DNA of 64,000 bases from Microbacteriaceae bacterium PS02067 (GTDB taxonomy: Bacteria > Actinomycetota > Actinomycetes > Actinomycetales > Microbacteriaceae). The position numbers were made by a program, and so were the translations under genes. The stretch covers positions 1 through 64,000 of the forward strand of contig JASCPG010000001.1 in the NCBI GenBank assembly GCA_029960085.1, given 5' to 3'. Of the stretch, positions 3,008 to 60,045 are shown piece by piece; the stretch's first letter is position 1; each line of letters begins with the position of its first letter. The notes below the pieces were generated by a model that searched no databases, was not told the origin of the DNA, and saw only the letters and a list, made by a program, of their open reading frames with translations.

Positions 3008-6000
3008 ATGTTCCGCAAGATCCTGGTCGCGAACCGCGGCGAAATCGCCATCCGCGCCTTCCGTGCGGCCTTCGAACTCGGTGCGCGCACCGTGGCGGTG
3101 TATCCCTACGAAGACCGCTACTCGCTGCACCGTCTGAAGGCCGACGAGGCGTACCAGATCGGCACGACGGGCCAGCCCGTGCGCGCGTACCTGGACGTCG
3201 ATGAGATCATCCGCGTCGCGCTCGAATCCGGCGCGGATGCCATCTACCCCGGCTACGGGTTCCTGTCCGAGAATCCCGCCCTCGCCGCGAAGGCCGCCGA
3301 GCACGGCATCGTCTTCATCGGTCCGCCGTCCCGCGCGCTCGAGATGGCGGGCAACAAGGTCACGGCGAAGGAGCATGCGATCGCCGCGGGGGTGCCCGTG
3401 CTGCGCTCGACACCGGCATCCGACGACGTCGACCTGCTCGTCGCCGCGGCGGATGAGATCGGCTTCCCGATCTTCGTGAAGGCGGTCGCGGGCGGCGGCG
3501 GGCGCGGCATGCGTCGCGTCGACACGAAGGATGCCCTGGCGCCGGCCATCGCGGAGGCGATGCGCGAGGCCGACAGTGCGTTCGGCGACGCGCGCGTGTT
3601 CCTCGAGCAGGCCGTGCAGCGTCCGCGCCATGTCGAGGTGCAGATCCTCGCGGACAAGACCGGCGACACCGTCCACCTTTTCGAGCGGGACTGCTCCGTG
3701 CAGCGGCGCCACCAGAAGGTCATCGAGATCGCCCCGGCACCGAACCTCGACCCGACGGTGGCGGCAGCCCTGCACTCCCACGCGGTCGCGTTCTCGCGCT
3801 CCATCGGCTACGAGAATGCCGGCACCGTGGAGTTCCTGCTGGAGACCGCAGGCCCCCGCACCGGCGAGGTCGTCTTCATCGAGATGAACCCGCGCATCCA
3901 GGTCGAGCACACTGTGACCGAAGAGGTCACCGACGTCGATCTCGTGCAGTCGCAGATGCGGATCGCCGCGGGCGAGACCCTCCAAGACCTCGGCCTGCAG
4001 CAGGAGAACATCCGGCTGCGTGGTGCGGCCCTGCAGTGCCGCATCACGACGGAGGACCCGACGCAGGGCTTCCGCCCCGACACGGGGAAGATCACGACGT
4101 ACCGGTCGCCCGGCGGTGCGGGCATCCGGCTCGACGGCGGAACGACCGCCGCCGGTTCCCAGGTGAGCCCCCACTTCGACTCGATGCTCGCGAAGCTGAC
4201 CTGCCGCGGGCGCGACTTCGCCGCCGCCGTCGTGCGCTCCCGGCGCGCGCTGGCCGAGTTCCGCATCCGCGGCGTCTCGACGAACATCCCCTTCCTGCAG
4301 GCGGTGCTCGATGACCCCGCGTTCGTGGCGGGCGATGTGAGCACGGCGTTCATCGACGAGCGCCCGGAGCTCCTGCGCGGACGCGAGTCGAAGGACCGCG
4401 GCTCGAAGATCATCGCGTGGCTCGCCGACACGACCGTCAACCGCCCGAACGGCGACAACCCGCTCACGGTGGATCCGGCGGCCAAGCTCCCCGCGATCGA
4501 CGTGACGACCGAACCGCAGGCCGGCAGCCGTCAGCGCCTGCGCGACCTCGGTCCGGCAGGGTTCGCGAAGGCCCTCCGCGAGCAGACCTCGCTCGCGGTG
4601 ACGGAGACGACGTTCCGCGACGCGCACCAGTCGCTCCTCGCGACCCGCGTGCGCACGCGCGACCTCGTGACGGTCGCCCCGTACGTGGCGCGCCTCACAC
4701 CCCAGCTGTTCTCGGTCGAGGCATGGGGCGGCGCGACGTACGACGTGGCCTTGCGCTTCCTGGGCGAAGACCCGTGGGAGCGCCTCGACGCGCTCCGCCA
4801 GGCGCTCCCGAACGTCGCCATCCAGATGCTGCTGCGCGGCCGGAACACGGTCGGCTACACGCCGTACCCCACGCAGGTCACCGACGCGTTCGTGCGCGAG
4901 GCCGCGGCATCCGGCGTCGACATCTTCCGCATCTTCGACGCCCTGAACGACGTCTCCCAGATGCGGCCTGCGATCGATGCGGTCCTCGCGACCGGCACCT
5001 CCGTCGCGGAGGTCGCGGTCTGCTACACGGGCGACCTGCTCGACCCGGGGGAGAGCCTCTACACGCTCGACTACTACCTGCGCCTCGCCGAGCAGGTCGT
5101 GGATGCCGGTGCGCACATCCTTGCGATCAAGGACATGGCGGGGCTCCTCCGCCCCGCCGCGGCCGCGAAGCTCGTCTCGGCGCTGCGCGACCGGTTCGAC
5201 GTGCCCGTCCACGTCCACACCCACGACACGGCGGGCGGCCAGCTCGCCACTCTCCTGGCGGCAAGTCACGCCGGAGCCGACGCCGTGGATGCCGCCTCGG
5301 CGCCGATGTCCGGCACGACGAGCCAGCCGTCGCTGTCGGCCGTCGTCGCGGCCCTCGCGCACACCGAGCGCGACACGGGGCTCGACCTGGCATCCGTCGC
5401 GAGTCTCGAGCCGTACTGGGAGGCGGTGCGGCACCTGTACCGCCCGTTCGAGTCGGGCCTGCCGGGCCCCACCGGCAGGGTCTACCACCACGAGATCCCG
5501 GGCGGTCAGCTCTCCAACCTGCGCCAGCAGGCGATCGCCCTCGGCCTCGCCGACGACTTCGAGCTCATCGAGGACATGTACGCCGCGGCGAACGACATCC
5601 TCGGGCGCGTCCCCAAGGTGACGCCCTCGTCGAAGGTCGTCGGAGACCTCGCGCTGCACCTCGCGGCGGTCAAGGCCGACCCGGCCGACTTCGCGGCGAA
5701 CCCGGAGAAGTACGACGTGCCCGACTCGGTCGTCGGTTTCATGGCGGGTGAGCTCGGCGACCTGCCGGGAGGATGGCCGGAGCCGTTCCGCACCAAGGTC
5801 CTGCAGGGGCGTGAGGTGCGCGTCGGCGTCACGGACATCTCGACCGAGGATGCCGCCGCACTCGAGTCCGATTCGACGACGCGCCGCGAGACGCTCAACC
5901 GCCTGCTGTTCCCCGCACCGACGAAGGCGTTCCGCGAGGTGCGCGACACCTACGGAGACCTGAGTCCCCTCGACACCGCCGACTATCTCTACGGGCTCGC

Positions 6001-6415
6001 TCCGGGGACCGAGCACGTCGTCGAGATCGAGCGGGGTGTGCAGCTCTACGTCGGGCTCGAGGCGATCGGTGAAGCCGATGACAAGGGCATGCGCACCGTC
6101 ATGACGACCCTCAACGGCCACCTGCGTCCCGTCTTCGTCCGAGACCGGTCGATCACCGTCGAGGTGCGTCAGGCCGAGAAGGCCGACACCACGAAGCCCG
6201 GCCAGGTCGCCGCGCCGTTCTCGGGCGTCGTGACGCTCAAGACCGCGGTCGGCGACCGGGTTCAGGCCGGTCAGCCCGTGGCATCCATCGAGGCGATGAA
6301 GATGGAGGCGGCGATCACCGCCCCCGTCGACGGGGTCGTCGATCGACTCGCGATCGCCGCCACCTCACCGGTCGAGGCGGGTGACCTTTTGGTCGTCATC
6401 CGCCCCGCCGACTAG
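3008..6415 (+). CDS. pyc: pyruvate carboxylase
   Basis: A single 1135-aa chain that converts pyruvate, bicarbonate and ATP to oxaloacetate, the main anaplerotic reaction in many Actinobacteria. Domains in order: biotin carboxylase with ATP-grasp (about 1-450, starting MFRKILVANRGEIAIRAF, with the glycine-rich AGGGGRGMR), carboxyltransferase (about 530-830, F-R-D-A-H-Q-S near 537-542), a PYC_OADA-type linker, and a C-terminal biotinyl domain whose motif A-M-K-M-E carries the biotinylated lysine K1098. Length is normal for a one-chain pyruvate carboxylase. I chose ATG 3008 because the family N-terminus begins there, a ribosome site precedes it and the likely promoter lies at 2939. Most Ala-Ser pairs in this gene are written GCA TCC. 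Confidence 0.97.
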   Translation: MFRKILVANRGEIAIRAFRAAFELGARTVAVYPYEDRYSLHRLKADEAYQIGTTGQPVRAYLDVDEIIRVALESGADAIYPGYGFLSENPALAAKAAEHGIVFIGPPSRALEMAGNKVTAKEHAIAAGVPVLRSTPASDDVDLLVAAADEIGFPIFVKAVAGGGGRGMRRVDTKDALAPAIAEAMREADSAFGDARVFLEQAVQRPRHVEVQILADKTGDTVHLFERDCSVQRRHQKVIEIAPAPNLDPTVAAALHSHAVAFSRSIGYENAGTVEFLLETAGPRTGEVVFIEMNPRIQVEHTVTEEVTDVDLVQSQMRIAAGETLQDLGLQQENIRLRGAALQCRITTEDPTQGFRPDTGKITTYRSPGGAGIRLDGGTTAAGSQVSPHFDSMLAKLTCRGRDFAAAVVRSRRALAEFRIRGVSTNIPFLQAVLDDPAFVAGDVSTAFIDERPELLRGRESKDRGSKIIAWLADTTVNRPNGDNPLTVDPAAKLPAIDVTTEPQAGSRQRLRDLGPAGFAKALREQTSLAVTETTFRDAHQSLLATRVRTRDLVTVAPYVARLTPQLFSVEAWGGATYDVALRFLGEDPWERLDALRQALPNVAIQMLLRGRNTVGYTPYPTQVTDAFVREAAASGVDIFRIFDALNDVSQMRPAIDAVLATGTSVAEVAVCYTGDLLDPGESLYTLDYYLRLAEQVVDAGAHILAIKDMAGLLRPAAAAKLVSALRDRFDVPVHVHTHDTAGGQLATLLAASHAGADAVDAASAPMSGTTSQPSLSAVVAALAHTERDTGLDLASVASLEPYWEAVRHLYRPFESGLPGPTGRVYHHEIPGGQLSNLRQQAIALGLADDFELIEDMYAAANDILGRVPKVTPSSKVVGDLALHLAAVKADPADFAANPEKYDVPDSVVGFMAGELGDLPGGWPEPFRTKVLQGREVRVGVTDISTEDAAALESDSTTRRETLNRLLFPAPTKAFREVRDTYGDLSPLDTADYLYGLAPGTEHVVEIERGVQLYVGLEAIGEADDKGMRTVMTTLNGHLRPVFVRDRSITVEVRQAEKADTTKPGQVAAPFSGVVTLKTAVGDRVQAGQPVASIEAMKMEAAITAPVDGVVDRLAIAATSPVEAGDLLVVIRPAD

Positions 6416-6462
6416 CCTGGAGGGCGCGGACCGGGTCCGCGGACAAGCTGGGAGAGTGCAAC

Positions 6463-7749
6463 GTGGCGTCTGATCGCAACGAAAAAGCGGCGGGCGAAGC
6501 CGACAACGGCGTCCTCGCGACCACTGGGGGTATCGACTCGACCGGGCTCGGCCTCGCCGGCGCCCCCACGGCGCAGGTCGATGTGACCCTGCCGGTGGCA
6601 GACGACGACGACTTCGTCGACGACGACGTCACGGTCGATGAGACCGTCGTCGCGGTGCCGGTCGCCACCGAGCCGACGGTCGCCGCAGCCACCACCATCG
6701 CCGTCACCGTGGCCGACGACGAGCTCGAGCACGCGGAGCGGGTGCGCCCGCGCACCTCGGAGATCACCCTCCAGTCGCGCCGTCTCGGCGACTTCGAGGC
6801 CGATCGCGAAAGCGCCGACCTCCTCACGGCCGACCGGCTGCTCGACCCCGCTCGAATCGTGCGCCCCGAGCCCGAGGGGCCATGGCAGCACTTCGTCTAC
6901 GCGATCTCCGGCCACCGCATCAACCTCGGCGACGGCAAGCGGGCGCGTGCGCGCAAGGAGCTCGACCGCCGCATCGCCGCACCCCTCTCGGGCGGGGCGA
7001 AGTTCGTGCCGGTGCTCTCCCGCAAGGGCGGCGTCGGCAAGACCACCATCACGACGCTTCTCGGCATGGCCCTCGCCGACTCGCGCGAAGACCGCGTGAT
7101 CGCCGTCGACGCGAACCCCGACCGCGGCACGCTCGCCGAGCGGATCGGCCGCACGAGCGACAAGACCGTCCGCGACCTCGTCCGGGCGAGCGCCGAGGTG
7201 CGCGGCTTCAACGACATTTCCCAGATCGTCGGGCGCGATCAGACGCGTCTCGACGTCATCGCGTCCGATGCCGACCCGCACGTGTCGGAGGCGTTCAGCG
7301 ACACCGACTACGAGGACGTCGCGAAGGTCGCCGCGCACTTCTACTCGGTCGTGCTGACCGATACGGGCACCGGCATCGTCCACTCCGTGATGGCCGCCAC
7401 GCTCGATCGGGCGGACACCCTCGTCGTCGTCACGGGCCTCAGCGTCGACGAGGCCCGCCTCGCGTCCGAGACCCTCACGTGGCTCGACGCGAACGGCTAC
7501 GCGGACCTCGTGCGCAACGCCGTGGTCGTGCTCAACACCTCACGCCCCGGGGCGCCCCTCGTGCGCGCCGCCGAACTCGAGGCGCACTTCCGCACTCGGG
7601 TGCGGTCGGTCGTCCGGATGCCCTACGACCCGCACATCGCCTCGGGGAGTGCGATCTCCTTCCGCGACCTGCAGCCCGCGACGCGCGAGGCCGCGCGGGA
7701 ACTGGCCGCGATCGTCGTCGAAGGCCTTCGCGCGCAGGCCGCCGCCTGA
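6463..7749 (+). CDS. MinD/ParA-like ATPase with acidic N-terminal tail
   Basis: A 428-aa protein. The first ~120 residues are acidic and low in complexity, with runs of D, V and T (about 40-90). After a basic segment (around 160) the ATPase domain begins, with deviant Walker [11 protein letters not shown] at 186-195 and V-D-A-N-P-D-R-G-T at about 210. This build (disordered tail plus MinD-type domain) resembles the ATPases found near type VII secretion genes, but no such genes are in view. GTG start with gggagag upstream. The stop overlaps the deformylase start by one base (TGATG), so the two are probably co-translated. Function unassigned. Confidence 0.75.
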
Positions 7750-8240
7750 TGGCGGTCCGTCCGATCCGGGTCTTCGGCGACCCGGTTCTCCGTGCCGTCT
7801 GCGCTCCGATCGAAGTGGTCGACGACGGCATCCGTGCCCTCGTGCAGGACCTCGTCGACACCGTCGAGCTGCCCGGCCGCGCCGGCGTCGCCGCCCCGCA
7901 GATCGGGGTCGGGGTCCGCGCGTTCAGCTACAACATCGACGGCGACATCGGCTATGTGCTGAACCCCGTGCTCGTCGAGGTGCGCGGTGAACCGCAGCCG
8001 GTGGGCGAGGGATGCCTGTCCGTCCCCGGACTCTGGCACGACGCCCTCCGCTACCCGTGGGCGCGCGTCGTCGGCACGGATCTCGACGGGCGCGAGATCG
8101 TCCTCGAAGGCGAGGGCCTCCTCGCGCAGGCCCTGCAGCACGAGACCGACCACCTCGACGGCATGCTGTATCTGTCCCGACTCACCGCCGAGGACCGCAA
8201 GACCGCGATGCGCGAGATCCGCGAGAGCTCCTGGTTCTGA
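7749..8240 (+). CDS. def: peptide deformylase
   Basis: A 163-aa metalloenzyme that removes the formyl group from the N-terminal methionine of new proteins. All three family motifs are visible: G-V-A-A-P-Q-I-G (motif I), E-G-C-L-S (motif II, with the metal-binding Cys) and Q-H-E-T-D-H (motif III, with two metal-binding His and the catalytic Glu). The start overlaps the upstream ATPase stop by one base. It faces the acyl-CoA ligase gene, 36 nt away. Length is normal for a short actinobacterial deformylase. Confidence 0.95.
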
Positions 8241-8276
8241 GGCGCCCTCGCGGCCCTCGCGGCACGCTCCGGCCGA

Positions 8277-10112
8277 TCAGCCGAGCGGCACGTTCGTGGT
8301 CGTGACGGGCACCGTGTAGAGATCCTCGATGTCCTTCGCGAAGTCGCCCAGGATCACGTTGCGCTTGATGCTCATCTTCGGCGTCAGGTGTCCGCTCGCC
8401 TCGGTCCACTCCGTGTCGAGGATCGTGAACTTGCGGATCGACTCGGCGCGCGACACGCGCTTGTTCGCGATGTCGACCGCGCGCTGGACCTCCTCGCGGA
8501 CCTTCGGGTTCTTCGCGGCATCCGCCAGCGACATGTCTCCGGGGAGGCCGTTGTTCGCAAGCCATGCGGGGAGCATCTCGGGGTCGAGGGTCACCAGCGC
8601 CGAGATGAACGGCTTCTGGTCGCCGACGACGACGACCTGACCGACGATCGGGTTGGCGCGGATAGGGTCCTCGAGTGCGGCCGGAGCGACGTTCTTGCCA
8701 CCGGCGGTGACGATGATCTCCTTCTTGCGGCCGGTGATCGTGAGGAAGCCCTCGGCGTCGAAGGAGCCGAGGTCGCCCGTCAGGAACCAGTCGCCGTCGA
8801 AGGCGGCAGCCGTCGCCTCGGGGTTGCGCCAGTACTCCTTGAAGACGTTGATGCCGCGCACCTCGATCTCGCCGTCCTCGGCGAGCCGGACGCCGACGCC
8901 CGGGAGGACGGGGCCGACCGTCCCGATCTTCGACTTCTTCGCGAGGTTGACCGTCGCGGGCGCTGTGGTCTCGGTGAGACCGTACCCCTCGAGGATCGTC
9001 ACGCCGAGGCTGTGGAAGAAGTGGCCGAGGCGGGGGCCGAGCGGCGCCGAGCCCGAGACGGCGTAGGTGACCCGCCCGCCCATCGCGGCGCGGAGCTTCG
9101 AATAGACGAGCTTGTCGAACAGGGCGAACTTGATCCGCGTGCCGAGCGGGACCTTCTTGCCCTCTTGCAGCAGCGTCGAATGCTGGATGGCCGTGTGCGC
9201 GGCGGCGCGGAAGATCTTGCCCTTGCCGCCGGCCTCCGCCTTCTGCTCGGCCGAGTTGTACACCTTCTCGAAGACGCGCGGCACGGCGAGGAGGAACGTG
9301 GGTTGGAACGAGCCGAGCGCGGGGAGGAGCTGCGTCGTGTCGGGCTGGTGGCCGGTCTTCACGCCGGCGTGGATGTCGAGGATCGAGATGAAGCGCGCGA
9401 AGACGTGTGCCGTCGTGATGAACAGCAGCGTCGAAGCGCCGGGTGTGTTGACGACCTCTTCGAGCGACTTCGCGGAGTTGCGGGAGAGCTCGACGAAGTT
9501 GCTGTGCGTGAGGACGCAGCCCTTCGGGCGACCGGTCGATCCCGATGTGTAGATGAGGGTCGCGATGTCGGAGCCGACGGCGAGGTTCCGCCGACGCTCG
9601 ATCTCGTCGTCGGAGACGTCGGTGCCGCCTGCGCGGAGTGTGTCGAGGGCGCCGGATGCCATCGTCCAGGCGTCGCGGATGAGCGGCACCTCGGCGCGGA
9701 TCTCGTCGACCCGGGCGGCGTGCTCCGCAGTTTCGGACAGCACCGCGATCGCGCCCGAGTCGGAGAGGATCCAGCTGATCTGGGCGGCGGAGCTCGTCTC
9801 GTAGACGGGGACCATGACCGCGCCCGCGAAGAACAGGGCGAAATCGACGAGCGTCCACTCGTACGTCGTGCGGGCGATGAAGGCGACCTTGTCGCCGGGC
9901 TCGATACCGGCGGCGACGAACCCCTTGGCGAGGGCGATGACGTCGCGCTGGAAGGCGGCGGCGGTGATGTCGCGCCACCCGTCGCCCTCGGGGACGGAGA
10001 ACAGCGCAAGGGACGGGGTGGCCTTCACCCGCTCGACGAGCAGGTCGGTGATGTTGGCGTTCGGATCGGCGGGAACGATCGCGGGGACTTCGAACTGGAC
10101 GGCGGCGCTCAT
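8277..10112 (-). CDS. long-chain fatty acid-CoA ligase (AMP-forming), FadD15-like
   Basis: A 611-aa acyl-activating enzyme that makes acyl-AMP, then acyl-CoA, from a fatty acid, ATP and CoA. The AMP-binding loop Y-T-S-G-S-T-G-R-P-K-G is at 188-198, followed by E-G-Y-G-L-T-E-T (A5-type motif) and, near the C-terminus, T-G-D-L and G-R-K-K-E-I. Size and motif order fit the bacterial long-chain class (FadD15 of mycobacteria). I chose ATG 10112 because GAAGGAG lies 9 nt upstream; longer in-frame starts would run past the likely promoter (10163-10168). Substrate chain length cannot be read from sequence. Confidence 0.9.
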   Translation of the reverse strand: MSAAVQFEVPAIVPADPNANITDLLVERVKATPSLALFSVPEGDGWRDITAAAFQRDVIALAKGFVAAGIEPGDKVAFIARTTYEWTLVDFALFFAGAVMVPVYETSSAAQISWILSDSGAIAVLSETAEHAARVDEIRAEVPLIRDAWTMASGALDTLRAGGTDVSDDEIERRRNLAVGSDIATLIYTSGSTGRPKGCVLTHSNFVELSRNSAKSLEEVVNTPGASTLLFITTAHVFARFISILDIHAGVKTGHQPDTTQLLPALGSFQPTFLLAVPRVFEKVYNSAEQKAEAGGKGKIFRAAAHTAIQHSTLLQEGKKVPLGTRIKFALFDKLVYSKLRAAMGGRVTYAVSGSAPLGPRLGHFFHSLGVTILEGYGLTETTAPATVNLAKKSKIGTVGPVLPGVGVRLAEDGEIEVRGINVFKEYWRNPEATAAAFDGDWFLTGDLGSFDAEGFLTITGRKKEIIVTAGGKNVAPAALEDPIRANPIVGQVVVVGDQKPFISALVTLDPEMLPAWLANNGLPGDMSLADAAKNPKVREEVQRAVDIANKRVSRAESIRKFTILDTEWTEASGHLTPKMSIKRNVILGDFAKDIEDLYTVPVTTTNVPLG

Positions 10113-10162
10113 GGGCGGCAACTCCTTCGGTACCGGGTGGCGTCGGGTGACGGCTGGGATCG

Positions 10163-10168
10163 AGTCTA
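10163..10168 (-). promoter_or_regulatory. candidate -10 box of the acyl-CoA ligase gene
   Basis: TAGACT on the minus strand, 50 nt upstream of the ATG at 10112. It is divergent from the glucokinase promoter about 90 bp away. No clear -35. Confidence 0.4.
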
Positions 10169-10239
10169 ACCTTACGTGGCACTCAGTCCCACTGGCGCCG
10201 TTGCCGCACTTATGCCCGGCTGGGTGCACCGCGTGGGAC

Positions 10240-10259
10240 TGTGGAGTCCACACTAGACT
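10240..10259 (+). promoter_or_regulatory. palindromic operator candidate and -10 box of the glucokinase gene
   Basis: TGTGGA-G-TCCACA (10240-10252) is a perfect 6-bp inverted repeat around one base. It sits directly before TAGACT (10254-10259), a good -10. A repressor bound here would block the promoter. The regulator is not identifiable from sequence. Confidence 0.45.
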
Positions 10260-10311
10260 CTCGGGTGCCGTGCCGCCCCTCCTTCAGTCGCGCGCGGGAG
10301 AGAGGAACGCT

Positions 10312-11250: not shown

Positions 11251-11267
11251 GACCCGAGGAGCGCGTG

Positions 11268-11948: not shown

Positions 11949-11988
11949 GGCCCCTGTCACAGCGGCATCCCGCCCCGATCCGCGCCAG

Positions 11989-11994
11989 TAGACT
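11989..11994 (+). promoter_or_regulatory. leaderless promoter -10 of aroG
   Basis: TAGACT ends 6 nt before the ATG at 12001, which places the expected transcript start on or next to the A of the start codon. No ribosome site fits between. Confidence 0.6.
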
Positions 11995-12000
11995 GGCCGA

Positions 12001-13338: not shown

Positions 13339-13453
13339 CGCTCGCGCGGCCGACCCGCTCTTGCCCGCCGGCCTGCGCGGTTCGTCCACCGCTCGGTTCG
13401 TCGGCCGCCCGGTCCGTCGGCCGCCGGCCCGTCCCGCGTCCGTCTGTCTCGAA

Positions 13454-13524
13454 AGCAGGGCGAACCGCCCCCGCGGCGGTATCTCGGCCTCGCTGAAGCC
13501 GATCCGCCCTGCTCTCGGAACGCG
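13454..13524. repeat. ~70-bp inverted-repeat element, copy 1
   Basis: AGCAGGGCG at 13454-13462 pairs with CGCCCTGCT at 13505-13513, enclosing a CG-rich interior; ctcggaacgcg follows. The same layout recurs at 13713-13783. Confidence 0.6.
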
Positions 13525-52037: not shown

Positions 52038-52054
52038 GCGGATCTCGCCTCATC

Positions 52055-52358
52055 ATGGCTCTGTCACTGCAGGGCGATGCTGACGGGTCCCGGTGACCGC
52101 TGGCTGCTGTGCAGCGACGGCATCAGCGACTATCTGCCGGAGGACGCGATCACCGAAGTCCTCGGCAACTCGGACACGGTGGCGGCAGCGACGCGGCTCG
52201 TCGACCTGGCCATCGGCGCGGGCTCGCGTGACAACGTCACCGCGGTGGTCGCCGACGTCATCGAAAGCCCGGCGGGCCGCGTGGAACGGCACACCGATGT
52301 CCGCTTCTGGGGATCCGCGGAGGCACGCTTCTCAGAAGGCACCGACCTCGCGGGCTGA
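52055..52358 (+). pseudogene. PP2C-type protein phosphatase, decayed C-terminal remnant
   Basis: The frame starting at 52077 encodes about 93 residues that match only the end of a PP2C phosphatase: G-D-R-W-L-L-C-S-D-G-I-S-D-Y, then G-S-R-D-N-V-T-A-V-V-A-D-V. The preceding frame (52055) reads A-L-S-L-Q-G-D-A-D, which resembles the segment normally just upstream, and then stops. The two frames meet at GATGCTGAC (52076-52084), consistent with a small deletion or frameshift. The catalytic N-terminal two thirds (metal Asp motifs) are missing. Codon use matches the neighbours. An active 93-aa product is unlikely. Confidence 0.75.
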
Positions 52359-52392
52359 TCCGGGCTCGTAGCCGCACGAGCTCCCATCCGCT

Positions 52393-52818
52393 CTACTTCG
52401 GCGTGCGGACGTACATCACGAGCGGATCGAAGATGCGGGGGAGCGCGCCGTCGGCCCCGTCGACGGGAAGGCCTTCCCGCGCCCAGTACTCGAACCCGCC
52501 GATCATCTCGCGCACCGAATAGCCCAGTCTCGCGAACTCGACGGCGCCCTTCGCGCCGGCGTTGCACCCCGGGCTCCAGCAGTACACGACGACCGGGACC
52601 GCGGGGTCGATCTCGTTCGCCGCACGCGCGGCGATCTCGCGGTACGGCATGTGTACGGCGCCCTGCGCGTGTCCCTGGGCCCAGGCATCCGCGCTGCGGA
52701 CGTCGACGAGGGTGAGCGGTTCCCCGGCCTTCAGCGCCGCGTAGACATCGGAGGCGTCGGTTTCGTGGAGGAGCTTCGCGGAGAAGTATCCCAGGGCGTC
52801 ATACGTGGTATCCGTCAT
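52393..52818 (-). CDS. rhodanese-domain protein
   Basis: A 141-aa single-domain protein. V-D-V-R-S-A-D-A-W-A-Q-G-H (about 38-50) and the active loop V-V-Y-C-W-S-P-G-C-N-A (about 77-87, catalytic Cys) identify the sulfurtransferase fold. It may transfer sulfur or handle cyanide or thiols; the loop sequence does not fix the substrate. It is transcribed away from qcrB, with a hairpin between them. Confidence 0.88.
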   Translation of the reverse strand: MTDTTYDALGYFSAKLLHETDASDVYAALKAGEPLTLVDVRSADAWAQGHAQGAVHMPYREIAARAANEIDPAVPVVVYCWSPGCNAGAKGAVEFARLGYSVREMIGGFEYWAREGLPVDGADGALPRIFDPLVMYVRTPK

Positions 52819-52841
52819 GCTTCGACGCTACGCCGAAGACG

Positions 52842-52883
52842 AAAGCGGCGAGGCCGACCATTCGGTCAGACCTCGCCGCTTTT
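52842..52883 (-). terminator. hairpin after qcrB
   Basis: AAAGCGGCGAGG (52842-52853) pairs with CCTCGCCGCTTT (52871-52882), a 12-bp perfect stem with a 17-nt loop. It lies 21 nt past the qcrB stop. The T-run is short on both strands, so efficiency is uncertain. Confidence 0.75.
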
Positions 52884-52903
52884 CAGCCAAGCTCAGGCGG
52901 AGC

Positions 52904-54601
52904 TCAGTGGCCCTTGCCGTCTTCGATCGCGGACGTCTCGTCGGCGTCGGCCGCAACGGCATGGTGGGTGTGCGCCTCAGCGGCATCCACTTCCGCCTGG
53001 GTGATGGGGACGAGCCGGTCCTCGAAGAACCAGCGCGACAGCGAAGCGCGCAGGTTCTCGTGCCACGGGATGCGGCCCTGATCGTTGGGGCGCACGACGA
53101 GCGGTGCGTTCGTCTCGTAGTCGACCAGCTTGACGCGCTCGTACGCGTCGACGGGCTGGTGGACCTCGATGTACTCGCCGCCCGGGAGACGGACGATGCG
53201 ACCGGACTCGTAGCCGTGCAGCGCGATCTCGTGGTCCTTCTTCTGGAGCGCGATCGCGATGCGCTTCGCGATGAAGTATCCGAGGATCGGCCCGATGAAC
53301 AGCAGCGCCTGCAGCGTGTGGATGACGCCTTCCATCGTGAGGTGGAAGTGCGTGGCGATGATGTCCGAGGACGCCGCCGCCCACAGCACCGCGTAGAAGA
53401 TGACGCCGGCCACGCCGATCGCGGTGCGCGTCGCCGCCTGACGGGGACGCTGAGCGATGTGGTGCTCGCGCTTGTCACCCGTGATCCACGCCTCGATGAA
53501 GGGGTAGATGAGGACCAGCAGGATGAACAGGCCGAGGACCGCCATCGGGATGAGGATGTTGAACGACCAGGTGCGGTCCCACAGGACGAACTCGAGGTGC
53601 GGCGGCACGAGACGAAGCGCGCCGTCGGCGAAGCCGATGTACCAGTCGGGCTGCGTGCCGGCGGAGACCGGTGAGGGGTCGTAGGGGCCGTAGTTCCAGA
53701 TCGGGTTGATCGTGAAGAAGGTCGCGATCAGCACGATGAGGCCGAACGTGATGAAGAAGAAGCCGCCCATCTTGGACATGTAGACCGGCATCATCGGGTA
53801 GCCCACGACGTTGTCGTTCGAGCGGCCGGGGCCGGCGAACTGCGTGTGCTTGTTGACGATCATCAGCATGAGGTGCACGGCCAGCAGTGCGATGAGTATC
53901 GCCGGCAGCAGGAGGATGTGCAGCGTGTACAGGCGTCCGACGATCTGCGTGCCGGGGAACTCGCCGCCGAACAGGAGGAACGAGGTCCATGTGCCGATCA
54001 GGGGGAGACCCTTGATCATGCCGTCGATGATGCGGAGGCCGTTGCCCGAGAGCAGGTCGTCGGGGAGCGAGTACCCCGTGAAGCCTTCGGCCATCGCGAG
54101 GATGAACAGGACGAACCCGATCACCCAGTTGAGCTCGCGCGGCTTGCGGAACGCGCCGGTGAAGAACACGCGGAGCATGTGCACGCCGATACCGGCGACG
54201 AACACGAGCGCGGCCCAGTGGTGGATCTGCCGGACGAGCAGACCGCCGCGGATGTCGAACGACAGGCGCAGGGTCGAGTCGAGTGCAGCCGACATCTCCA
54301 CACCGCGCAACGGCAGGAAGGCGCCCGCGTAGTGGGTCGGGACCATGGATGCCTGGAAGAAGAACGTCAGGAAGGTGCCCGACAGCAGCACCGCGACGAA
54401 GCTCCACAGGGCGATCTCACCGAGCATGAACGACCAGTGGTCGGGGAAGATCTTGCGGCCGAGCTCCTTCACGAAGCCCGAGATGCTCGTGCGCTCGTCG
54501 ATGTAGTTCGCGGCGCCCGCGACGAAGCGGCCGCCGAGCGGCTTCTCGTTCGTCTCAGCGCTGGTCCCGGTGCGGGTCTCAGTGGCGGTCGCGGTGCTCA
54601 A
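52904..54601 (-). CDS. qcrB: cytochrome b subunit of the bcc complex
   Basis: A 565-aa subunit, longer than mitochondrial cytochrome b as usual in Actinobacteria. It carries about nine helices with the heme-binding His pairs (H-H-W-A-A near 115 and H-I-L-L-L, H-L-M-L-M), the quinol site P-D-W-Y (P-E-W-Y-equivalent) and a long cytoplasmic C-terminal tail with acid and His residues. The TTG start overlaps the qcrA stop (TTGA), a rare but clear case. Terminal gene of ctaE-qcrCAB. Confidence 0.95.
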   Translation of the reverse strand: MSTATATETRTGTSAETNEKPLGGRFVAGAANYIDERTSISGFVKELGRKIFPDHWSFMLGEIALWSFVAVLLSGTFLTFFFQASMVPTHYAGAFLPLRGVEMSAALDSTLRLSFDIRGGLLVRQIHHWAALVFVAGIGVHMLRVFFTGAFRKPRELNWVIGFVLFILAMAEGFTGYSLPDDLLSGNGLRIIDGMIKGLPLIGTWTSFLLFGGEFPGTQIVGRLYTLHILLLPAILIALLAVHLMLMIVNKHTQFAGPGRSNDNVVGYPMMPVYMSKMGGFFFITFGLIVLIATFFTINPIWNYGPYDPSPVSAGTQPDWYIGFADGALRLVPPHLEFVLWDRTWSFNILIPMAVLGLFILLVLIYPFIEAWITGDKREHHIAQRPRQAATRTAIGVAGVIFYAVLWAAASSDIIATHFHLTMEGVIHTLQALLFIGPILGYFIAKRIAIALQKKDHEIALHGYESGRIVRLPGGEYIEVHQPVDAYERVKLVDYETNAPLVVRPNDQGRIPWHENLRASLSRWFFEDRLVPITQAEVDAAEAHTHHAVAADADETSAIEDGKGH

Positions 54602-55689
54602 TGGCGCTCCCAGAAGCTCGGGCCGACGGGTTCGTGGAAGTCGCTCTGCGCGACGAGATAGCCCTCGCCGTCCACGGTGATGGGCAGCTGCGGCAGCGGA
54701 CGCGCCGCGGGGCCGAAGATGACGGCAGCGTGGTTGGCGACGTCGAACTGCGACTGGTGGCACGGGCACAGCAGGTGGTGCGTCTGCTGCTCGTAGAGGG
54801 CCACGGGGCATCCGACGTGGGTGCAGACCTTGGAGTACGCCACGATGCCGTTGTAGGACCAGTCCTTGCGGTCCTCCTGCTCGTGCAGCTGCTCGGGGAG
54901 CAGGCGCATCAGCAGCACGATGGCCTTCGCCTTCTGCTCGAGGTAACCGTCGGTGTGGCCGAGGTCCTTGAGCGATTCCGGGATGACGTGCACCGCCGAG
55001 CCGAGGGTGAGGTCGGCGGCGCGGATGGGCTCGCCGGACGGGTCGTGCGCGAGTCGCTCGCCCTTCTTCCACATCGTGTGGCTGAGCAGCGCGACCGGAT
55101 CGCCGGCCATCTGCTGTTCCGGAGTGCCGTTCGGGTTGCTTTCGGGCGCGAGGCCGCGGAAGAGCGTGATGCCGGGGAGGATCGAGGCGACGAGCGCCGC
55201 GATGAGTGAGCCACGGATCGCGGTGCGGCGACCGAAGCCCGACTCCTCGTTGGCGTCACGGAACGCCTGGACGGCCGCTTCGCGCGTCGTGTCGCGCCCG
55301 CGCGTCGCGTGCCGGGGCTCGACGAACTCCTTGTCGCTCATGATGGCCTTCGACCAGTGGATCGCACCGATGCCGATGGCCAGCAGCGCGAGGGCGATGC
55401 CGAGACCGATGAAGAGGTTGTTGTGGCGGATGGCCACCATCGAACCGCTCTCGATGGGGAACAGCATGTAGGCGGCGATGGCCCAGATGCTGCCCGCGAG
55501 GGAGAGGTAGAACAGCGTGTAGACCGTGCGGACGGCGCGCTTCATGGCGGCCGGGTCCTTGTCGGTGATGCGCTCCCGGTGCGGCGGCAGACCCGGGTTC
55601 TCCACGGGGTCGGGAACCGCGACGGCGAGCCCGGGGGAGGGCTTCCATGAAGCCCTCTCGTGCTCGAGCGCGTCTTCCTCGTGTGCCAT
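54598..55689 (-). CDS. qcrA: Rieske iron-sulfur subunit of the bcc complex
   Basis: A 363-aa protein with three N-terminal helices (about 50-72, 83-105 and 155-175), typical of actinobacterial QcrA rather than the single helix elsewhere. The C-terminal Rieske domain has C-T-H-V-G-C-P and C-P-C-H-Q-S-Q-F-D, giving two Cys and two His for the 2Fe-2S cluster. ATG start; it lies 46 nt after qcrC and overlaps qcrB. Confidence 0.96.
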   Translation of the reverse strand: MAHEEDALEHERASWKPSPGLAVAVPDPVENPGLPPHRERITDKDPAAMKRAVRTVYTLFYLSLAGSIWAIAAYMLFPIESGSMVAIRHNNLFIGLGIALALLAIGIGAIHWSKAIMSDKEFVEPRHATRGRDTTREAAVQAFRDANEESGFGRRTAIRGSLIAALVASILPGITLFRGLAPESNPNGTPEQQMAGDPVALLSHTMWKKGERLAHDPSGEPIRAADLTLGSAVHVIPESLKDLGHTDGYLEQKAKAIVLLMRLLPEQLHEQEDRKDWSYNGIVAYSKVCTHVGCPVALYEQQTHHLLCPCHQSQFDVANHAAVIFGPAARPLPQLPITVDGEGYLVAQSDFHEPVGPSFWERH

Positions 55690-55735
55690 GTCTCGTCCGT
55701 TCCCTACGTCAGAGCGTGAAATCTTGTATGTCCGG

Positions 55736-56536
55736 TCAGTTCGACTTCGCCGTGATCCACACGGTGAGACCGATCAGGGTCCCGATGCCGAAGATCCAGA
55801 TGAACAGGCCCTCGGAGACCGGTCCGAGCGAACCGAGGGACCAGCCGCCGGGGGAGTCGTTCTCCTGCAGGTAGAGCAGTGCGGAGATGACGTCGCGCTT
55901 CTCCTCCTCGGTGAGGGTCATGTTGTTGAACACGGGCATGTTCTGCGGTCCCGTGACCATCGCGGCGTACATGTTGAGCGCACTCGTGTGCGTCAGTGCG
56001 GGGGCGTACTTACCCTCGGTGAGCGCGCCACCGGCCGCGGCCACGTTGTGGCACATGGCGCAGTTGGTGCGGAACAGCTCTGCGCCGTTGGCGACGTCGC
56101 CCTTCCCGTCGAGGACGTCCTCGGACGGGAAGCTCGGGCCGGGAGAGGTCGACTGGATCCACTTGCCGATCGCCGCGATCTGGTCGTCCGTGAACTGCAC
56201 GGGCTTCTGCGGCGCCTGCGGACCCTGCATCTGCAGCGGCATCCGACCGGTCGACATCTGGAAGTGGACGGCCAGCTCACCGACACCGTAGAGCGAAGGA
56301 CCGTCAGCGCTGCCCTCGAGGTTCATGCCGTGGCACGTCGCGCAGTTCGCCTGGAAGAGCTTCTTGCCGTCATCGACGGTCAGCGTCGACGCGGTGGACG
56401 TCGGCTCGGTCGCAGCCATCGCCGCAGAGGCGCCGGCATACACACCGCCGGTGACGAGCAGGCCGATCCCGATGAGAGCCGCGGCTGCCCACTTGCTGCG
56501 GCGGCCGGACTTCTGGCGCGGGTTCTTCGATGACAT
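55736..56536 (-). CDS. qcrC: diheme cytochrome c subunit of the bcc complex
   Basis: A 266-aa protein with a basic N-terminus, a signal-anchor helix (about 16-40), two c-type heme motifs C-A-T-C-H and C-A-M-C-H, and a C-terminal helix (about 240-262). The fused diheme subunit passes electrons straight to CtaC. I chose ATG 56536. A GTG at 56560 overlaps the ctaE stop (GTGA), would add eight residues and has equal claim by operon logic. Confidence 0.94.
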   Translation of the reverse strand: MSSKNPRQKSGRRSKWAAAALIGIGLLVTGGVYAGASAAMAATEPTSTASTLTVDDGKKLFQANCATCHGMNLEGSADGPSLYGVGELAVHFQMSTGRMPLQMQGPQAPQKPVQFTDDQIAAIGKWIQSTSPGPSFPSEDVLDGKGDVANGAELFRTNCAMCHNVAAAGGALTEGKYAPALTHTSALNMYAAMVTGPQNMPVFNNMTLTEEEKRDVISALLYLQENDSPGGWSLGSLGPVSEGLFIWIFGIGTLIGLTVWITAKSN

Positions 56537-56556
56537 GGAAGGGATCAGCTCCGCTC

Positions 56557-57192
56557 TCACTTGACGATGTAGATGACGAAGAACAGGACGATCCAGACGA
56601 CGTCGACGAAGTGCCAGTAGTACGACACGACGATGGCCGACGTCATCTCCTTGCGGCCGAAGTTCTTGACCGCATAGGCGCGGCCGACGACGAGGAGGAA
56701 GGCGACGAGGCCGCCGGTGACGTGGAGGGCGTGGAAGCCCGTGGTCAGGTAAAACGCCGACGCGTAGGAGTTGGCGGTGATCGGGAGCCCCTCGGCGACG
56801 AGCGTGGCGTACTCCCAGACCTGCCCGGAGACGAAGACGGCACCCATGATGAAGGAAAGGACGAACCACTCCGCCATGCCCCACTGGCGGAACTGCCAGA
56901 TCGAGCCCCTGCGGTACGGCTGGAACCGCTCGGCGGCGAAGACGCCGGCCTGTGCAGTGAACGACGACAGCACGAGGATCGCCGTGTTGACCGCAGCGAA
57001 GGTCACGTTCAGAGTGGGCGTCGACTCGGCCCACAGCTCGGGCGAGGCGTTGCGCAGCGTGAAGTAGATCGCGAACAGGCCTGCGAAGAACATGACCTCG
57101 CTGCCCAGCCACACGATGGTGCCGACAGCCACCGGATCCGGCCGTTTCACGGATCGCAAGGCTTGGGTGTAGTTCGCAGGCGTGGTCGTCAC
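56557..57192 (-). CDS. ctaE: cytochrome c oxidase subunit III
   Basis: A 211-aa subunit with five helices, typical of short bacterial subunit III. Recognised from [13 protein letters not shown], the [11 protein letters not shown] segment and [10 protein letters not shown]. First gene of ctaE-qcrCAB. GTG start; the promoter is probably leaderless. Confidence 0.96.
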
Positions 57193-57198
57193 GCACCC

Positions 57199-57204
57199 AT
57201 TATG
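57199..57204 (-). promoter_or_regulatory. leaderless promoter -10 of ctaE-qcrCAB
   Basis: On the minus strand CATAAT (five of six matches to TATAAT) ends 6 nt before the GTG at 57192. This would drive the whole bcc operon. Confidence 0.6.
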
Positions 57205-57318
57205 GCGGATTCGGCGCTCGGTTTTCGCATCACTGAAGGTGCGTCCGGGCTCCGCCCGACTTTCGGGGGCATCGGAATGCGCTTCGAACGGGCCGCGAGT
57301 GTCCTGACAGTCTGCCGA

Positions 57319-57324
57319 TAGGAT
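57319..57324 (+). promoter_or_regulatory. candidate -10 of trpD
   Basis: TAGGAT ends 8 nt before the ATG at 57333. Confidence 0.5.
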
Positions 57325-57332
57325 CGTGCATC

Positions 57333-58385
57333 ATGGCGGAGCTCTACTCATGGCCGGAGATCCTCACGGCCGTTCTCGATCGTCGCGATCTCAGCGTGTC
57401 CGAATCCACGTGGGCGATGCGGAAGGTGATGAGCGGCGCGGCGACGCCGTCTCAACTCGGTGGGTTCCTGCTCGCCCTGCGCGCGAAGGGCGAGACGGTC
57501 GATGAGATCGTCGGATTCCGCGACGCGATCCTGGAGGCTGCGCTCCCCCTTCCCGTGCCGGCTGAGGTGCTCGACATCGTGGGCACCGGTGGCGACCGAT
57601 TCGGGACGGTCAACATCTCGACGATGTCGGCGATCGTGGCCGCAGCCACCGGCATCCCCGTCGTCAAGCACGGAAACCGCGCGGCGAGTTCGGCCTCCGG
57701 CTCCTCCGACGTTCTGGGTGCTCTCGGGATCGATCTGACCCTTTCGCCCGAGCGCGTCTCGGAGGTACTCGGAGAGGTGGGGATCACGTTCGCGTTCGCG
57801 TCCGCGTTCCACCCGGGCTTCCGACACGCGGGGCCGACGCGCGCAGAACTCGGCGTGCCGACGGTCTTCAACATCCTCGGTCCGCTGTGCAACCCGGCGC
57901 GCGCCGAGGCGAACGCCGTCGGTGTCGCGAACCTCGACCGGGTGCCGCTCATCACGGGCGTCTTCCAGACGCGAGGCGCCACCGCACTCGTGTTCCGAGG
58001 TGACGACGGTCTCGACGAGCTCACGACCACCGGTCACAGCCGGCTGTGGGAGATCAGCCGCGGAGACATCCACGAACACGACCTCGACCCCCGCGACCTG
58101 GGACTGCCGCTCGCCGACATCGGCGACCTGCTCGGCGGCGATGCCGCCCACAACGCCGAGGTCGTGCGGCGCGTGCTCGCCGGTGAGGCGGGCGCCGTCC
58201 GTGACATCGTGCTACTCAATGCGGCGGCCGGCATCGTGTCGTACGAGCTGTTCCGGGATGCCGCACAGGTGCAGCGACCGATCGTCGAGCGGCTGTCGGA
58301 TGCCATGGCTCGCGCCGGCGCGGCGATCGACGACGGCGCAGCCCAGGCTGTCCTCGACCGGTGGGTCCTCGCGACGCAGCGGTGA
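57333..58385 (+). CDS. trpD: anthranilate phosphoribosyltransferase
   Basis: A 350-aa enzyme of tryptophan synthesis. The phosphoribosyl pyrophosphate site G-T-G-G-D (about 85-89) is followed by N-I-S-T-M, K-H-G-N-R-A-A-S-S and G-P-L-C-N-P. Full length. Placement next to ctaE is conserved in Actinobacteria (Rv2192c beside Rv2193). No other trp genes are close, so the pathway is split. Confidence 0.95.
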   Translation: MAELYSWPEILTAVLDRRDLSVSESTWAMRKVMSGAATPSQLGGFLLALRAKGETVDEIVGFRDAILEAALPLPVPAEVLDIVGTGGDRFGTVNISTMSAIVAAATGIPVVKHGNRAASSASGSSDVLGALGIDLTLSPERVSEVLGEVGITFAFASAFHPGFRHAGPTRAELGVPTVFNILGPLCNPARAEANAVGVANLDRVPLITGVFQTRGATALVFRGDDGLDELTTTGHSRLWEISRGDIHEHDLDPRDLGLPLADIGDLLGGDAAHNAEVVRRVLAGEAGAVRDIVLLNAAAGIVSYELFRDAAQVQRPIVERLSDAMARAGAAIDDGAAQAVLDRWVLATQR

Positions 58386-58485
58386 CCTGAAGGTCGGGAT
58401 TAAGTCCGGTCCGGCCGCTGGTGCATCCCCGGTGCGCCCGATACCGTGAAAAACCATCCCGGCCCCCCAGAAAGGACCGCCCCTC

Positions 58486-58977
58486 ATGTCCGACCAAGCC
58501 GTCACCGTCGACACCGTCGAGCCCCCTCAGAAGAAGGTCGGCATCGTCAAGTTCGCCGGCATCATCGGCATTCTGGGCGGTATCGCCCTGATCGTCGTGG
58601 GAGTCGCCGTGTGGGTGATGGTCTCGAGCCAGCTCCGCGCCGAGAACATCACCGTCCCCGATGACGCGATGGCCTTCCAGGGCCAGACCGTTGCGGGGCC
58701 GTTCACCGCCTACGTGCAGGCCGACATCATCCAGCACCACGCGCTCGAGGCGTCGGGTGGCAAGACGTACGCCGAGCTCGACCGCGAAGACCCGGTGCGC
58801 GCCACGATGATGAACGCGTCGTTCCTGCGGGCGTCGCTGTTCACCTCCGTGGTCTCGTTCGGCGTCGCCGCGTTCGCGATCGGCGTCGGCATCCTCGTCA
58901 TCCTCTTCGGCCTGGCGCTCAACCGCCTCGCGTCGGTCCCCGTCGTCGTTCGCCGCTCGACGGTCTCGAACACCTGA
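58486..58977 (+). CDS. small two-segment membrane protein of unknown function
   Basis: A 163-aa protein. A polar N-terminus, a helix at about 23-48, an outside loop of about 65 residues (H-H-A-L-E-A-S-G-G-K-T-Y-A-E) and a second hydrophobic region (about 113-147), then a short basic tail. Close relatives in Microbacteriaceae are often labelled with a doubtful dioxygenase name; nothing here supports that. Ribosome site agaaagga. A strong hairpin follows, so it is probably a single-gene transcript. Confidence 0.75.
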   Translation: MSDQAVTVDTVEPPQKKVGIVKFAGIIGILGGIALIVVGVAVWVMVSSQLRAENITVPDDAMAFQGQTVAGPFTAYVQADIIQHHALEASGGKTYAELDREDPVRATMMNASFLRASLFTSVVSFGVAAFAIGVGILVILFGLALNRLASVPVVVRRSTVSNT

Positions 58978-58982
58978 CCCGT

Positions 58983-59020
58983 CGAAGGGGCCCGCATCAC
59001 GGTGCGGGCCCCTTCGTCAT
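58983..59020 (+). terminator. hairpin terminator after the small membrane protein gene
   Basis: A perfect 14-bp stem CGAAGGGGCCCGCA / TGCGGGCCCCTTCG (58983-58996, 59003-59016) with a 6-nt loop, followed by tcattt. The T-run is modest but the stem is very strong. Confidence 0.8.
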
Positions 59021-59034
59021 TTCCGGAAGGCGCC

Positions 59035-60045
59035 ATGGACCCCGTCGCCGCACTCACCGAGATCGCCGTGCTGCTCGAGCGCGAACGCGCCTCGCGATAC
59101 CGCTCGAAAGCCTTCCGCACCGCCGCCGCCGCGATCGACGGCCGCGACCGCGCCGAACTCGAGGATGCCGCTGCCCTGCGCCGCATCCCGGGTATCGGCG
59201 ATTCGTCGTTCGCGGTGATTCAGGAAGCTCTCTCCGGGAGGGTCCCGCACTACCTCGCCGAACTGCGTGAACGCTACGCGCCTGCCGTCTCGACACTGCG
59301 CGCGAGCATCCGCGGCGATCTGCACTGCCACTCGGACTGGTCGGACGGCACGACGCCGATCGAAGAGATGGCGGCCGCCGCGCGTGCGCTCGGGCACGAG
59401 TATCTGGCCCTCACGGATCACTCGCCGCGACTGCGGGTCGCGAACGGACTGTCCGCGGAACGACTGCGCGAGCAGGTCGGCGTCGCGCGGGGGCTGAGCG
59501 GAGACGGCTTCACACTCCTGACCGGCATCGAGGTCGACATCCTCGACGATGGCGCGCTCGACCAGGAGGACTCGCTCCTCGACGAGCTCGACGTCGTCGT
59601 GGCATCCGTCCATTCGAAACTGCGGATGGAGGTGCGCGCGATGACGCGGCGCCTCGTCGCCGCAGCCACGGACCCGCGTGTCGACGTGCTCGGGCACGTG
59701 ACGGGGCGGCTCATCACGGGGGAGCGCGGCACGCGTCCGCCGTCGGAGTTCGATGCGCACGCCGTGTTCGCCGCCTGCGCTGCGAGCGGGGTGGCGGTCG
59801 AGATCAACTCGCGCCCCGAGCGTGAGGATCCGCCCGACGAGCTGATCGCCCTCGCGCTGCAGGCGGGATGCCTGTTCGCGATCGACTCCGACGCGCATGC
59901 GCCCGGTCAGCTCGGACTCATCGACGAGGGCGCAGCCCGGGCGGAGCGGGCCGGTGTTCCGCCCGAGCGGATCGTGACGACGTGGCCGCTCGCGCGCCTG
60001 CGTGAGTGGACCGCCCGCGACCGGGCACCACACCCCGGCCATTGA
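59035..60045 (+). CDS. PHP-domain phosphoesterase with N-terminal helix-hairpin-helix (PolX-related)
   Basis: A 336-aa protein. The N-terminal ~85 residues resemble the helical 8-kDa and helix-hairpin-helix part of DNA polymerase X (I-P-G-I-G-D-S at 51-57). A PHP domain follows with D-L-H-C-H-S-D-W-S-D-G (95-105), A-L-T-D-H-S and D-S-D-A-H near the end, all metal ligands. The polymerase palm of PolX is absent. The likely activity is a metal-dependent nuclease or phosphatase on DNA ends; that is inference. ATG 59035 has ggaagg upstream. The stop codon falls inside the first unit of the repeat array. Confidence 0.8.
   Translation: MDPVAALTEIAVLLERERASRYRSKAFRTAAAAIDGRDRAELEDAAALRRIPGIGDSSFAVIQEALSGRVPHYLAELRERYAPAVSTLRASIRGDLHCHSDWSDGTTPIEEMAAAARALGHEYLALTDHSPRLRVANGLSAERLREQVGVARGLSGDGFTLLTGIEVDILDDGALDQEDSLLDELDVVVASVHSKLRMEVRAMTRRLVAAATDPRVDVLGHVTGRLITGERGTRPPSEFDAHAVFAACAASGVAVEINSRPEREDPPDELIALALQAGCLFAIDSDAHAPGQLGLIDEGAARAERAGVPPERIVTTWPLARLREWTARDRAPHPGH

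Follow-up and report, generated by a model that had tools for sequence, protein, structure and literature searches.

Three kinds of frequent short DNA word are the closest described systems to the subject of this study, the asymmetric 7-mer GGCATCC (GGATGCC on the opposite strand), which abounds in the genome of Microbacteriaceae bacterium PS02067 and in a 64,000-nt stretch of it (GCA_029960085.1, JASCPG010000001.1, positions 1 to 64,000; "the window"). First, GGCATCC resembles Chi (GCTGGTGG for E. coli RecBCD; other words for B. subtilis AddAB and others) in being short, asymmetric, and over-represented genome-wide. It also shows no excess in one acquired island and would act in one orientation, and its presumed reader is likewise a UvrD-type helicase-nuclease acting on DNA ends. 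Less clearly, it resembles Chi in phages, through its over-representation in one lineage that has no annotated recombination genes. Unlike Chi, GGCATCC is tied to the AdnAB class rather than to RecBCD or AddAB, is known here from sequence alone, lacks leading-strand polarity, and has several dialects inside one genus. It occurs 1.9 times per kb, as compared to one E. coli Chi per 5 kb (PMC8022716). Second, GGCATCC resembles the DNA uptake sequences (DUS) of Neisseriaceae and the uptake signal sequences (USS) of Pasteurellaceae in its density, its presence on both strands, its species dialects, its inverted pairs, and its lack of fixed positions. It differs from them in that its spacing depends on orientation in the PS02067 genome, its one-mismatch forms are unenriched, and one phage lineage is enriched for it. 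No receptor is known for GGCATCC, and no receptor search was made. Third, HIP1-type palindromes of cyanobacteria are also extremely frequent, with 5648 copies of GGCGATCGCC in Synechocystis (PMC1939737). GGCATCC is not a palindrome, yet the NGGATCC dialect of two relatives (G043 and G057) contains the palindrome GGATCC.

The reading favored here, to which we give a probability of about 0.58, is that GGCATCC is a Chi-like recombination hotspot word read by AdnAB. Regulation of AdnAB by any Chi was called unknown in a 2016 paper (PMC4824097), and how AdnAB manages stages analogous to Chi recognition was called unclear in a 2026 paper (PMC13309787). The spacing of GGCATCC and its species dialects suggest that it signals to the enzyme that processes broken chromosomes, and no such signal has so far been described for enzymes of this class. 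Neither a Chi of AdnAB nor a GGCATCC word appeared among the literature matches listed, most subscription journals lying outside the search, and CGGCATCCG as a free string gave nothing on this subject among the matches listed.

A 7-bp word rather than a codon preference

The window lies within contig C76 of the source genome (G000, 3.03 Mb; other G numbers denote comparison genomes), whose nearest named relatives by FtsZ are Microbacterium. A sequence-only reading of the window had reported an excess of the hexamer GCATCC/GGATGC. The excess is real and stronger than claimed: this is the window's top hexamer under a maximal-order model, with 153 copies versus 104 expected (z 7.3; 82 as GCATCC and 71 as GGATGC), and the four sites named at 3416, 4907, 5390, and 6281 are present. 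The unit was drawn too short, since 115 of the 153 hexamers lie inside the 7-mer GGCATCC/GGATGCC. The copies in the window, with genes labelled as by that reading, are as follows.

1..64000, both strands: 115 copies of GGCATCC/GGATGCC, a density of 1.8 per kb
197, 417, 1126, 1751, 3415, 4121, 4906, 5389, 6280, and onward to 63805, + strand: 64 copies of GGCATCC
1221, 3235, 3529, 5101, 5287, 5848, and onward to 62102, - strand: 51 copies, written GGATGCC on the + strand
3415..3421, + strand: GGCATCC as G GCA TCC (Ala-Ser) in the gene labelled pyc (called 3008-6412); the earlier 3416
4906..4912, + strand: GGCATCC in the same gene; the earlier 4907
5389..5395, + strand: GGCATCC in the same gene; the earlier 5390
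6280..6286, + strand: GGCATCC in the same gene; the earlier 6281
11964..11970, + strand: GGCATCC outside all called genes
18041..18047, - strand: GGATGCC outside all called genes
48402..48408, + strand: GGCATCC outside all called genes, opening the window's sole gap of more than 2.8 kb (to 52684, 4.3 kb)

Genome-wide, there are 5877 copies (2941 + 2936), which is 1942 per Mb or approximately one per 500 bases. GGCATCC/GGATGCC is the best 7-mer in a 430-kb sample of the genome, with 849 copies versus 174 expected under a Markov model of order 3 and 124 under order 2. In 789 kb, there are 1576 copies versus 225 (order 2) or 311 (order 3). For orders 1 to 5, the excess is 8.7-, 7.0-, 5.1-, 2.3-, and 1.3-fold, falling at high orders because these absorb GGCATCC itself. 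All seven positions matter, as the 21 one-mismatch forms are at 0.44-1.86 times expectation. The lowest of these, TGCATCC (0.44) and GGGATCC (0.54), are not emptied, as a partner would be under directed (Vsr-like) mutation, and that explanation was rejected. A word longer than 7 bp was also rejected because the flanks contribute little, although the preceding base is preferably C and the following one G or A. The reversed word, used as a control, has only 142 + 129 copies in the genome, being rare because it contains TA. Other frequent words in the 430-kb sample include CCTGCAG (240 copies versus 87 expected) and the 10-mer CGCGATCGCG (80 copies).

Is the excess a matter of codons? Gene-based counts used 393 genes called by a simple script in the 430-kb sample. 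These genes contain 764 copies, versus 187 +/- 10 over 60 synonymous shuffles within genes, none of which exceeded 208, a 4.1-fold excess; a shuffle that also keeps neighbor context gives 238 +/- 12, a 3.2-fold excess. The excess is largest in the frame G GCA TCC (22-fold, or 8-fold with context), followed by G GAT GCC (7-fold, or 5-fold with context). Closest to expectation, at 1.5-fold (1.3-fold with context), is GGC ATC C (Gly-Ile), which accounts for 164 copies. Sense and antisense copies within genes are nearly equal (376 and 388), and DNA outside called genes, some of which may be uncalled genes, has 82 copies versus 11.3 expected, a 7-fold excess. Because the word is equally frequent in both orientations, is enriched in several frames, and is in excess outside called genes, selection acts on a DNA word, not on codons. 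The sequence-only reading had proposed just this, for both strands and for genes and some spacers. It had also proposed a genome-wide count against Markov or codon-shuffled backgrounds; on samples of the genome, such counts give 7.0-fold (order 2, 789 kb) and 4.1-fold (synonymous shuffle, 430 kb). Its codon statements hold in part. In called genes, Ala-Ser is spelled GCA TCC more often than in any other single way, but at 32 of 160 pairs the preference is mild. GAT GCC is frequent for Asp-Ala (50 of 181 pairs) but stands behind GAC GCG (57) and GAC GCC (52). Of the causes that it listed, a codon-pair effect is ruled out by both kinds of shuffle, synonymous and context-keeping, and by the excess in DNA outside called genes. 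More broadly, an origin in codon-pair, codon-usage, or mutation bias has next to no probability. Its one attraction is that the frame GGC ATC C consists of common codons and, taken alone, is near expectation; it is contradicted by the shuffles, by the 22-fold excess in G GCA TCC, and by the 7-fold excess outside called genes. A bias of this kind would also have to produce no clear excess in one island of the genome and take a different form from species to species of the genus. A 20-kb transposon island (L014; G000:C95:1-20000) has 6 copies versus 4.9 expected, no clear excess, as compared to 7.0-fold in the 789 kb; it is the only island in the acquired-DNA comparison. Among the 10 called genes searched, the island encodes a TnsA-like endonuclease, a Mu/rve transposase, TniB, an FtsK-like protein, a Mom-like protein, ResIII, and a DNA methylase.

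Turnover, spacing, and orientation of the copies

The copies do not occupy conserved positions. When the window was aligned to 19 relatives, its copies were kept in 3-31% of cases versus 13-27% for control 7-mers, and were kept less than the controls in 16 of the 19, ruling out conserved site positions. Where the window has 40-44 copies, several relatives have 23-33 and others fewer.

Spacing in the source genome depends on orientation. Pairs of GGCATCC in the same orientation are at 0.43-0.84 of expectation at 30-720 bp and about 1.0 beyond, whereas pairs in opposite orientation are at 0.84-1.11 over the same range and at 1.63 at 8-30 bp. Thus, same-orientation copies avoid each other to approximately 700 bp and opposite copies do not, which means that GGCATCC is probably read one strand at a time. 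The same asymmetry is seen for neighbors at least 60 bp apart, with 441 opposite and 310 same pairs in one sample of the genome (p 2e-6, island L014 left out) and 365 and 263 in a second (p 5e-5). GGCATCC has the highest opposite-pair fraction at 60-960 bp of 62 abundant 7-mers (0.558; median 0.485), and the runner-up (0.530) is a 7-mer that overlaps it; in a nearest-neighbor ranking of the same 62, it is second to CGACGTC. Pooled adnAB loci from 33 further GGCATCC species, taken together with 7 stretches, have 296 same and 493 opposite pairs at 240-720 bp, although a p value for these pooled loci is too small because the loci are orthologous and not independent. We read the spacing as reflecting an orientation-dependent function, in which selection maintains one copy or more on either strand within each interval.

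The main rival, which we consider unlikely, is that GGCATCC is an uptake word of the DUS/USS type. Under this explanation, a competence receptor prefers DNA that carries the word, which then accumulates through biased uptake and recombination. The density, the equal orientations, the copies in and outside genes, the turnover, and the dialects all fit, as do the close inverted pairs: among neighbor pairs within 26 bp, 44 of 88 are GGATGCC followed by GGCATCC, 12 of those 44 outside called genes. A ComEC family match is present in 58 of 59 genomes of the genus, the sole miss being 77% complete, and natural DNA uptake has been described for two freshwater Microbacteriaceae (PMC11577799). However, uptake is reported not to depend on how the word is oriented, and uptake words have strongly over-represented one-mismatch forms (PMC1939737). 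The spacing of GGCATCC depends on orientation in the source genome, although this is weak or absent in some relatives, and its 21 one-mismatch forms are unenriched (0.44-1.86 times expectation). ComEC also occurs in genomes with other words, one phage lineage is enriched for GGCATCC, and an association with an AdnA residue described below would have to be coincidence. An uptake-like signal, another of the causes listed by the sequence-only reading, therefore suits the numbers but suits the orientation-specific spacing, the unenriched one-mismatch forms, and the phage-lineage excess less well.

Species dialects and the AdnA subunit of AdnAB

Species of the genus use different dialects of the word. 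GGCATCC ranges from 697 copies (in a 44%-complete genome) to 6796 across the 59 genomes. Several genomes low in GGCATCC have another word. GCCATCC has 3546 copies in G032 and 3158 in G038, with 1191 in the next highest genome; CGCATCC has 5668 in G035 and 4726 in G054, with 2899 in the next, G004, which may be mixed. AGCATCC has 2485 copies in G033, alongside GGCATCC, and 2101 in G050, although several GGCATCC species come near this, G042 among them with 1728. In the NGGATCC dialect, CGGATCC has 178 copies versus 34 expected in 80 kb of G057 (5.2-fold) and 93 versus 34 in 83 kb of G043 (2.7-fold). This dialect, with its embedded palindrome, is a change of word symmetry; CGGATCC is likewise at 2.7-fold in SZAS-4 (L035). 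No clear word was found in 20-40 kb of G039, G040, or G002. Across 150 genomes of the family, GGCATCC reaches 7364 copies (G115), and in 83 genomes of other families in the order its highest density is about 680 per Mb, versus 1942 in the source genome.

Enzymes of type III, type IIL, or the bacteriophage exclusion (BREX)-like kind typically have asymmetric words in which one part is constant and another varies, raising the prospect of a methylation or restriction word, kept frequent by a host that methylates it and makes use of the mark. Restriction words, on the other hand, are usually avoided. GGCATCC is 5-9-fold enriched under order 1-3 models, and 17-kb phages are enriched for it rather than depleted, making this explanation improbable.

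What might read the word? RecBCD is ruled out because the RecC family is absent from all 59 genomes of the genus; among 14 controls, only E. coli has a match. PF12705 has a match in 59 of 59 genomes, and AdnA and AdnB matches were found in all 41 loci read. The pair in the source genome has UvrD domains, with a PDDEXK domain in AdnA, and its AdnB is cut by the contig end. The best solved matches of AdnA are chains 7sjr, 6ppj, and 9np6, from mycobacterial AdnAB. G011, G027, and G049 carry an extra long PF12705 match or AdnAB-like pair beside the main one.

The AdnA tree has GGCATCC species on both sides of the midpoint root, their two main clades being about 50% identical; the GCCATCC species G032 and G038 form a fully supported pair, as do the CGCATCC species G035 and G054. 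AdnA was compared for these four species and G050 (the other deviating genomes, G004, G029, G033, G043, and G057, were left out). Thr75 is unchanged in 34 of 34 GGCATCC species and is Ser in G032, G038, and G050 and Arg in G035 and G054. It is the sole one of 253 invariant AdnA positions to be changed in all five other-dialect species, which represent three lineages, and in G038 it is the only change at an AdnA position that is invariant among GGCATCC species. No such position was found among 1164 invariant positions in 9 neighboring genes or among 375 in AdnB, where one invariant position is changed in four of the five. The residue aligned to Thr75 in the solved AdnA chain is also Thr. Within the N-terminal motor domain, Thr75 immediately precedes helicase motif Ib. 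We infer that AdnAB reads GGCATCC, that its activity changes at the word, and that Thr75 has a role in this.

Two broader patterns in AdnA were set aside. First, a general excess of changes in dialect species was rejected: dialect species share 13-21 changed positions with the CGCATCC pair versus 5.3-6.9 expected, and other-clade GGCATCC species share about as many (17-18 versus 6.6-6.9). It therefore reflects uneven rates, and Thr75 alone is relied on. Second, clustering of changes at positions 120-165 (p 0.003-0.08 in G054, G050, G035, and G039; none in G032 or G038) was not used. The Chi-binding mutants of B. subtilis AddB are F68A and F210A (PMC4824097); AddB was absent from 45 profile matches, and Thr75 could not be aligned to F68 or F210.

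Phages and the weighing of a Chi-like role

GGCATCC was counted in 14 phage records: 13 of Microbacterium (12 of M. foliorum), chosen from several hundred (at least 234 matches), and one of Arthrobacter. Three related 17-kb phages without an annotated recombinase or exonuclease have 24 copies versus 3.6 expected, 22 versus 3.7, and 19 versus 3.6 (6.7-, 5.9-, and 5.3-fold). Nine larger phages with an annotated exonuclease or recombinase are at 1.0-2.3-fold, Blett excepted (4.9-fold). A small Arthrobacter phage of similar build to the 17-kb phages has 0 copies versus 3.3 expected. Comparison with codon shuffles, made for 8 records of the 14, gives 23 versus 9.2, 22 versus 10.2, and 19 versus 9.7 for the 17-kb phages (2.0-2.5-fold), as compared to 26 versus 15.6 for Blett and 15 versus 8.8 for Elva (both 1.7-fold), 21 versus 14.9 for Goodman (1.4-fold), 19 versus 15.1 for Albedo (1.3-fold), and 0 versus 2.4 for the Arthrobacter phage. 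In lambdoid phages that lack a recombinase, Chi is over-represented to the density of the host, and the same holds for lambdoids that have a recombinase and no RecBCD inhibitor (PMC3784561). A recombinase without such an inhibitor, as in these lambdoids, could account for Blett. Some phage records have words of their own. The three 17-kb phages, LemonPepper, PoRanda, and Douggie (L228, L230, and L231), share a strong phage-specific word, ACATGTC (19-21 copies versus 0.7-0.8 expected); in Albedo, Elva, Bachaco, and Skylord (L225, L226, L227, and L238), GAGCTC-containing 7-mers or CGCCGGC are at 2.7-4.4-fold and CGGATCC is scarce (0.0-0.4-fold). NZ_CP072877.1 (L229), recorded as a plasmid, contains rsmH and cell-division genes as well as an FtsZ match, and is probably a piece of chromosome.

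How might a Chi-like word work with AdnAB? The enzyme would enter a broken or linear DNA end and read one strand while unwinding. On meeting GGCATCC in the right orientation, it would pause and turn from a destroyer of DNA into a promoter of recombination. Selection would then keep about one site per kb per orientation across the chromosome without fixing where the sites lie. Within AdnAB, AdnA would be the subunit that reads the word, and changes there, with Thr75 as the best candidate, would switch it, giving rise to dialects that share ATCC. A fuller version of this account is that AdnAB, which processes DNA breaks across Actinobacteria, mycobacteria among them, is Chi-regulated, with an NNCATCC-like word in Microbacterium, and that changes in the AdnA scanner (the Thr75 region) switched the word several times inside a single genus, each time rewriting thousands of sites, with the dialects directing self DNA to repair and foreign DNA to destruction. 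This version is tentative, its chances falling slightly short of even. A Chi-like word for AdnAB is not among the three causes that the sequence-only reading listed.

Several observations weigh against a Chi-like role. First, there is no replication polarity, as judged from chunk counts with the origin not located: strand counts are balanced over 21 chunks of the source genome (heterogeneity p 0.996) and near balance in 19 of 20 chunks of G034 (range 8/12 to 17/9). The one imbalanced G034 chunk (L138; G034:C1:1-20000; 29 to 9, p 0.0017 before correction) is the start of a one-contig genome. Second, the spacing signal is weak in G034 (253 same and 283 opposite pairs at 240-720 bp), absent from ten named dcw (division and cell wall) loci (83/95), and weak or absent in small samples of other dialects. 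Third, the AdnA association was both suggested by and found in a single data set, and its chance of 0.003 assumes equal rates, whereas rates are unequal and we guess the true chance to be up to tenfold higher. Thr75 is also kept in G039 (no word found, 44% complete) and in G051 (weak word). In addition, AGCATCC in G050, at 618 per Mb, is hardly above the 589 in G041, a GGCATCC species, such that G050 is set apart mainly by the absence of GGCATCC. Fourth, the 17-kb phages are a single lineage; Blett is enriched despite its own exonuclease and RecT-like protein; temperate Min1, with no annotated recombinase, is at 1.2-fold, although its host's dialect may differ; the phage contrast is small under codon shuffles; and the phage counts use GGCATCC, which may not be the word of the host M. 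foliorum. Fifth, some features of described words point the same way. E. coli Chi is polarized, and polarity was used as a criterion in a Chi search (PMC8022716); one-mismatch forms of E. coli Chi are over-represented (+1.47), unlike those of GGCATCC, and uptake words, too, have been reported to be evenly spaced (PMC1939737). Leading-strand polarity is, however, a criterion for detection, not a requirement of the Chi mechanism.

The strand balance also bears on a chromosome-organizing word, read by a nucleoid or segregation protein (FtsK with its FtsK-orienting polar sequences, KOPS; SMC; or a partition protein). Thousands of copies genome-wide would suit such a word, and strand-specific even spacing is what a motor that tracks along DNA could use. 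KOPS and other segregation words run with a polarity from origin to terminus, though, whereas GGCATCC is strand-balanced in chunk counts, and a 17-kb phage would not need such a word; we regard this explanation as quite improbable.

What would a Chi-like word mean for these bacteria? GGCATCC would work like Chi; it is not filed as a Chi because it has no replication polarity and because the action of AdnAB on it is inferred. For the regulation of AdnAB by Chi, the analysis supplies a concrete word, natural dialect variants, a candidate reading residue that follows the dialect in AdnAB (the one candidate reader examined), and some support from phages. If the Chi-like reading is true, a genus with switching Chi dialects would show co-evolution of a hotspot word and its reader, and linear DNA used to engineer Microbacteriaceae could be protected by means of the word.

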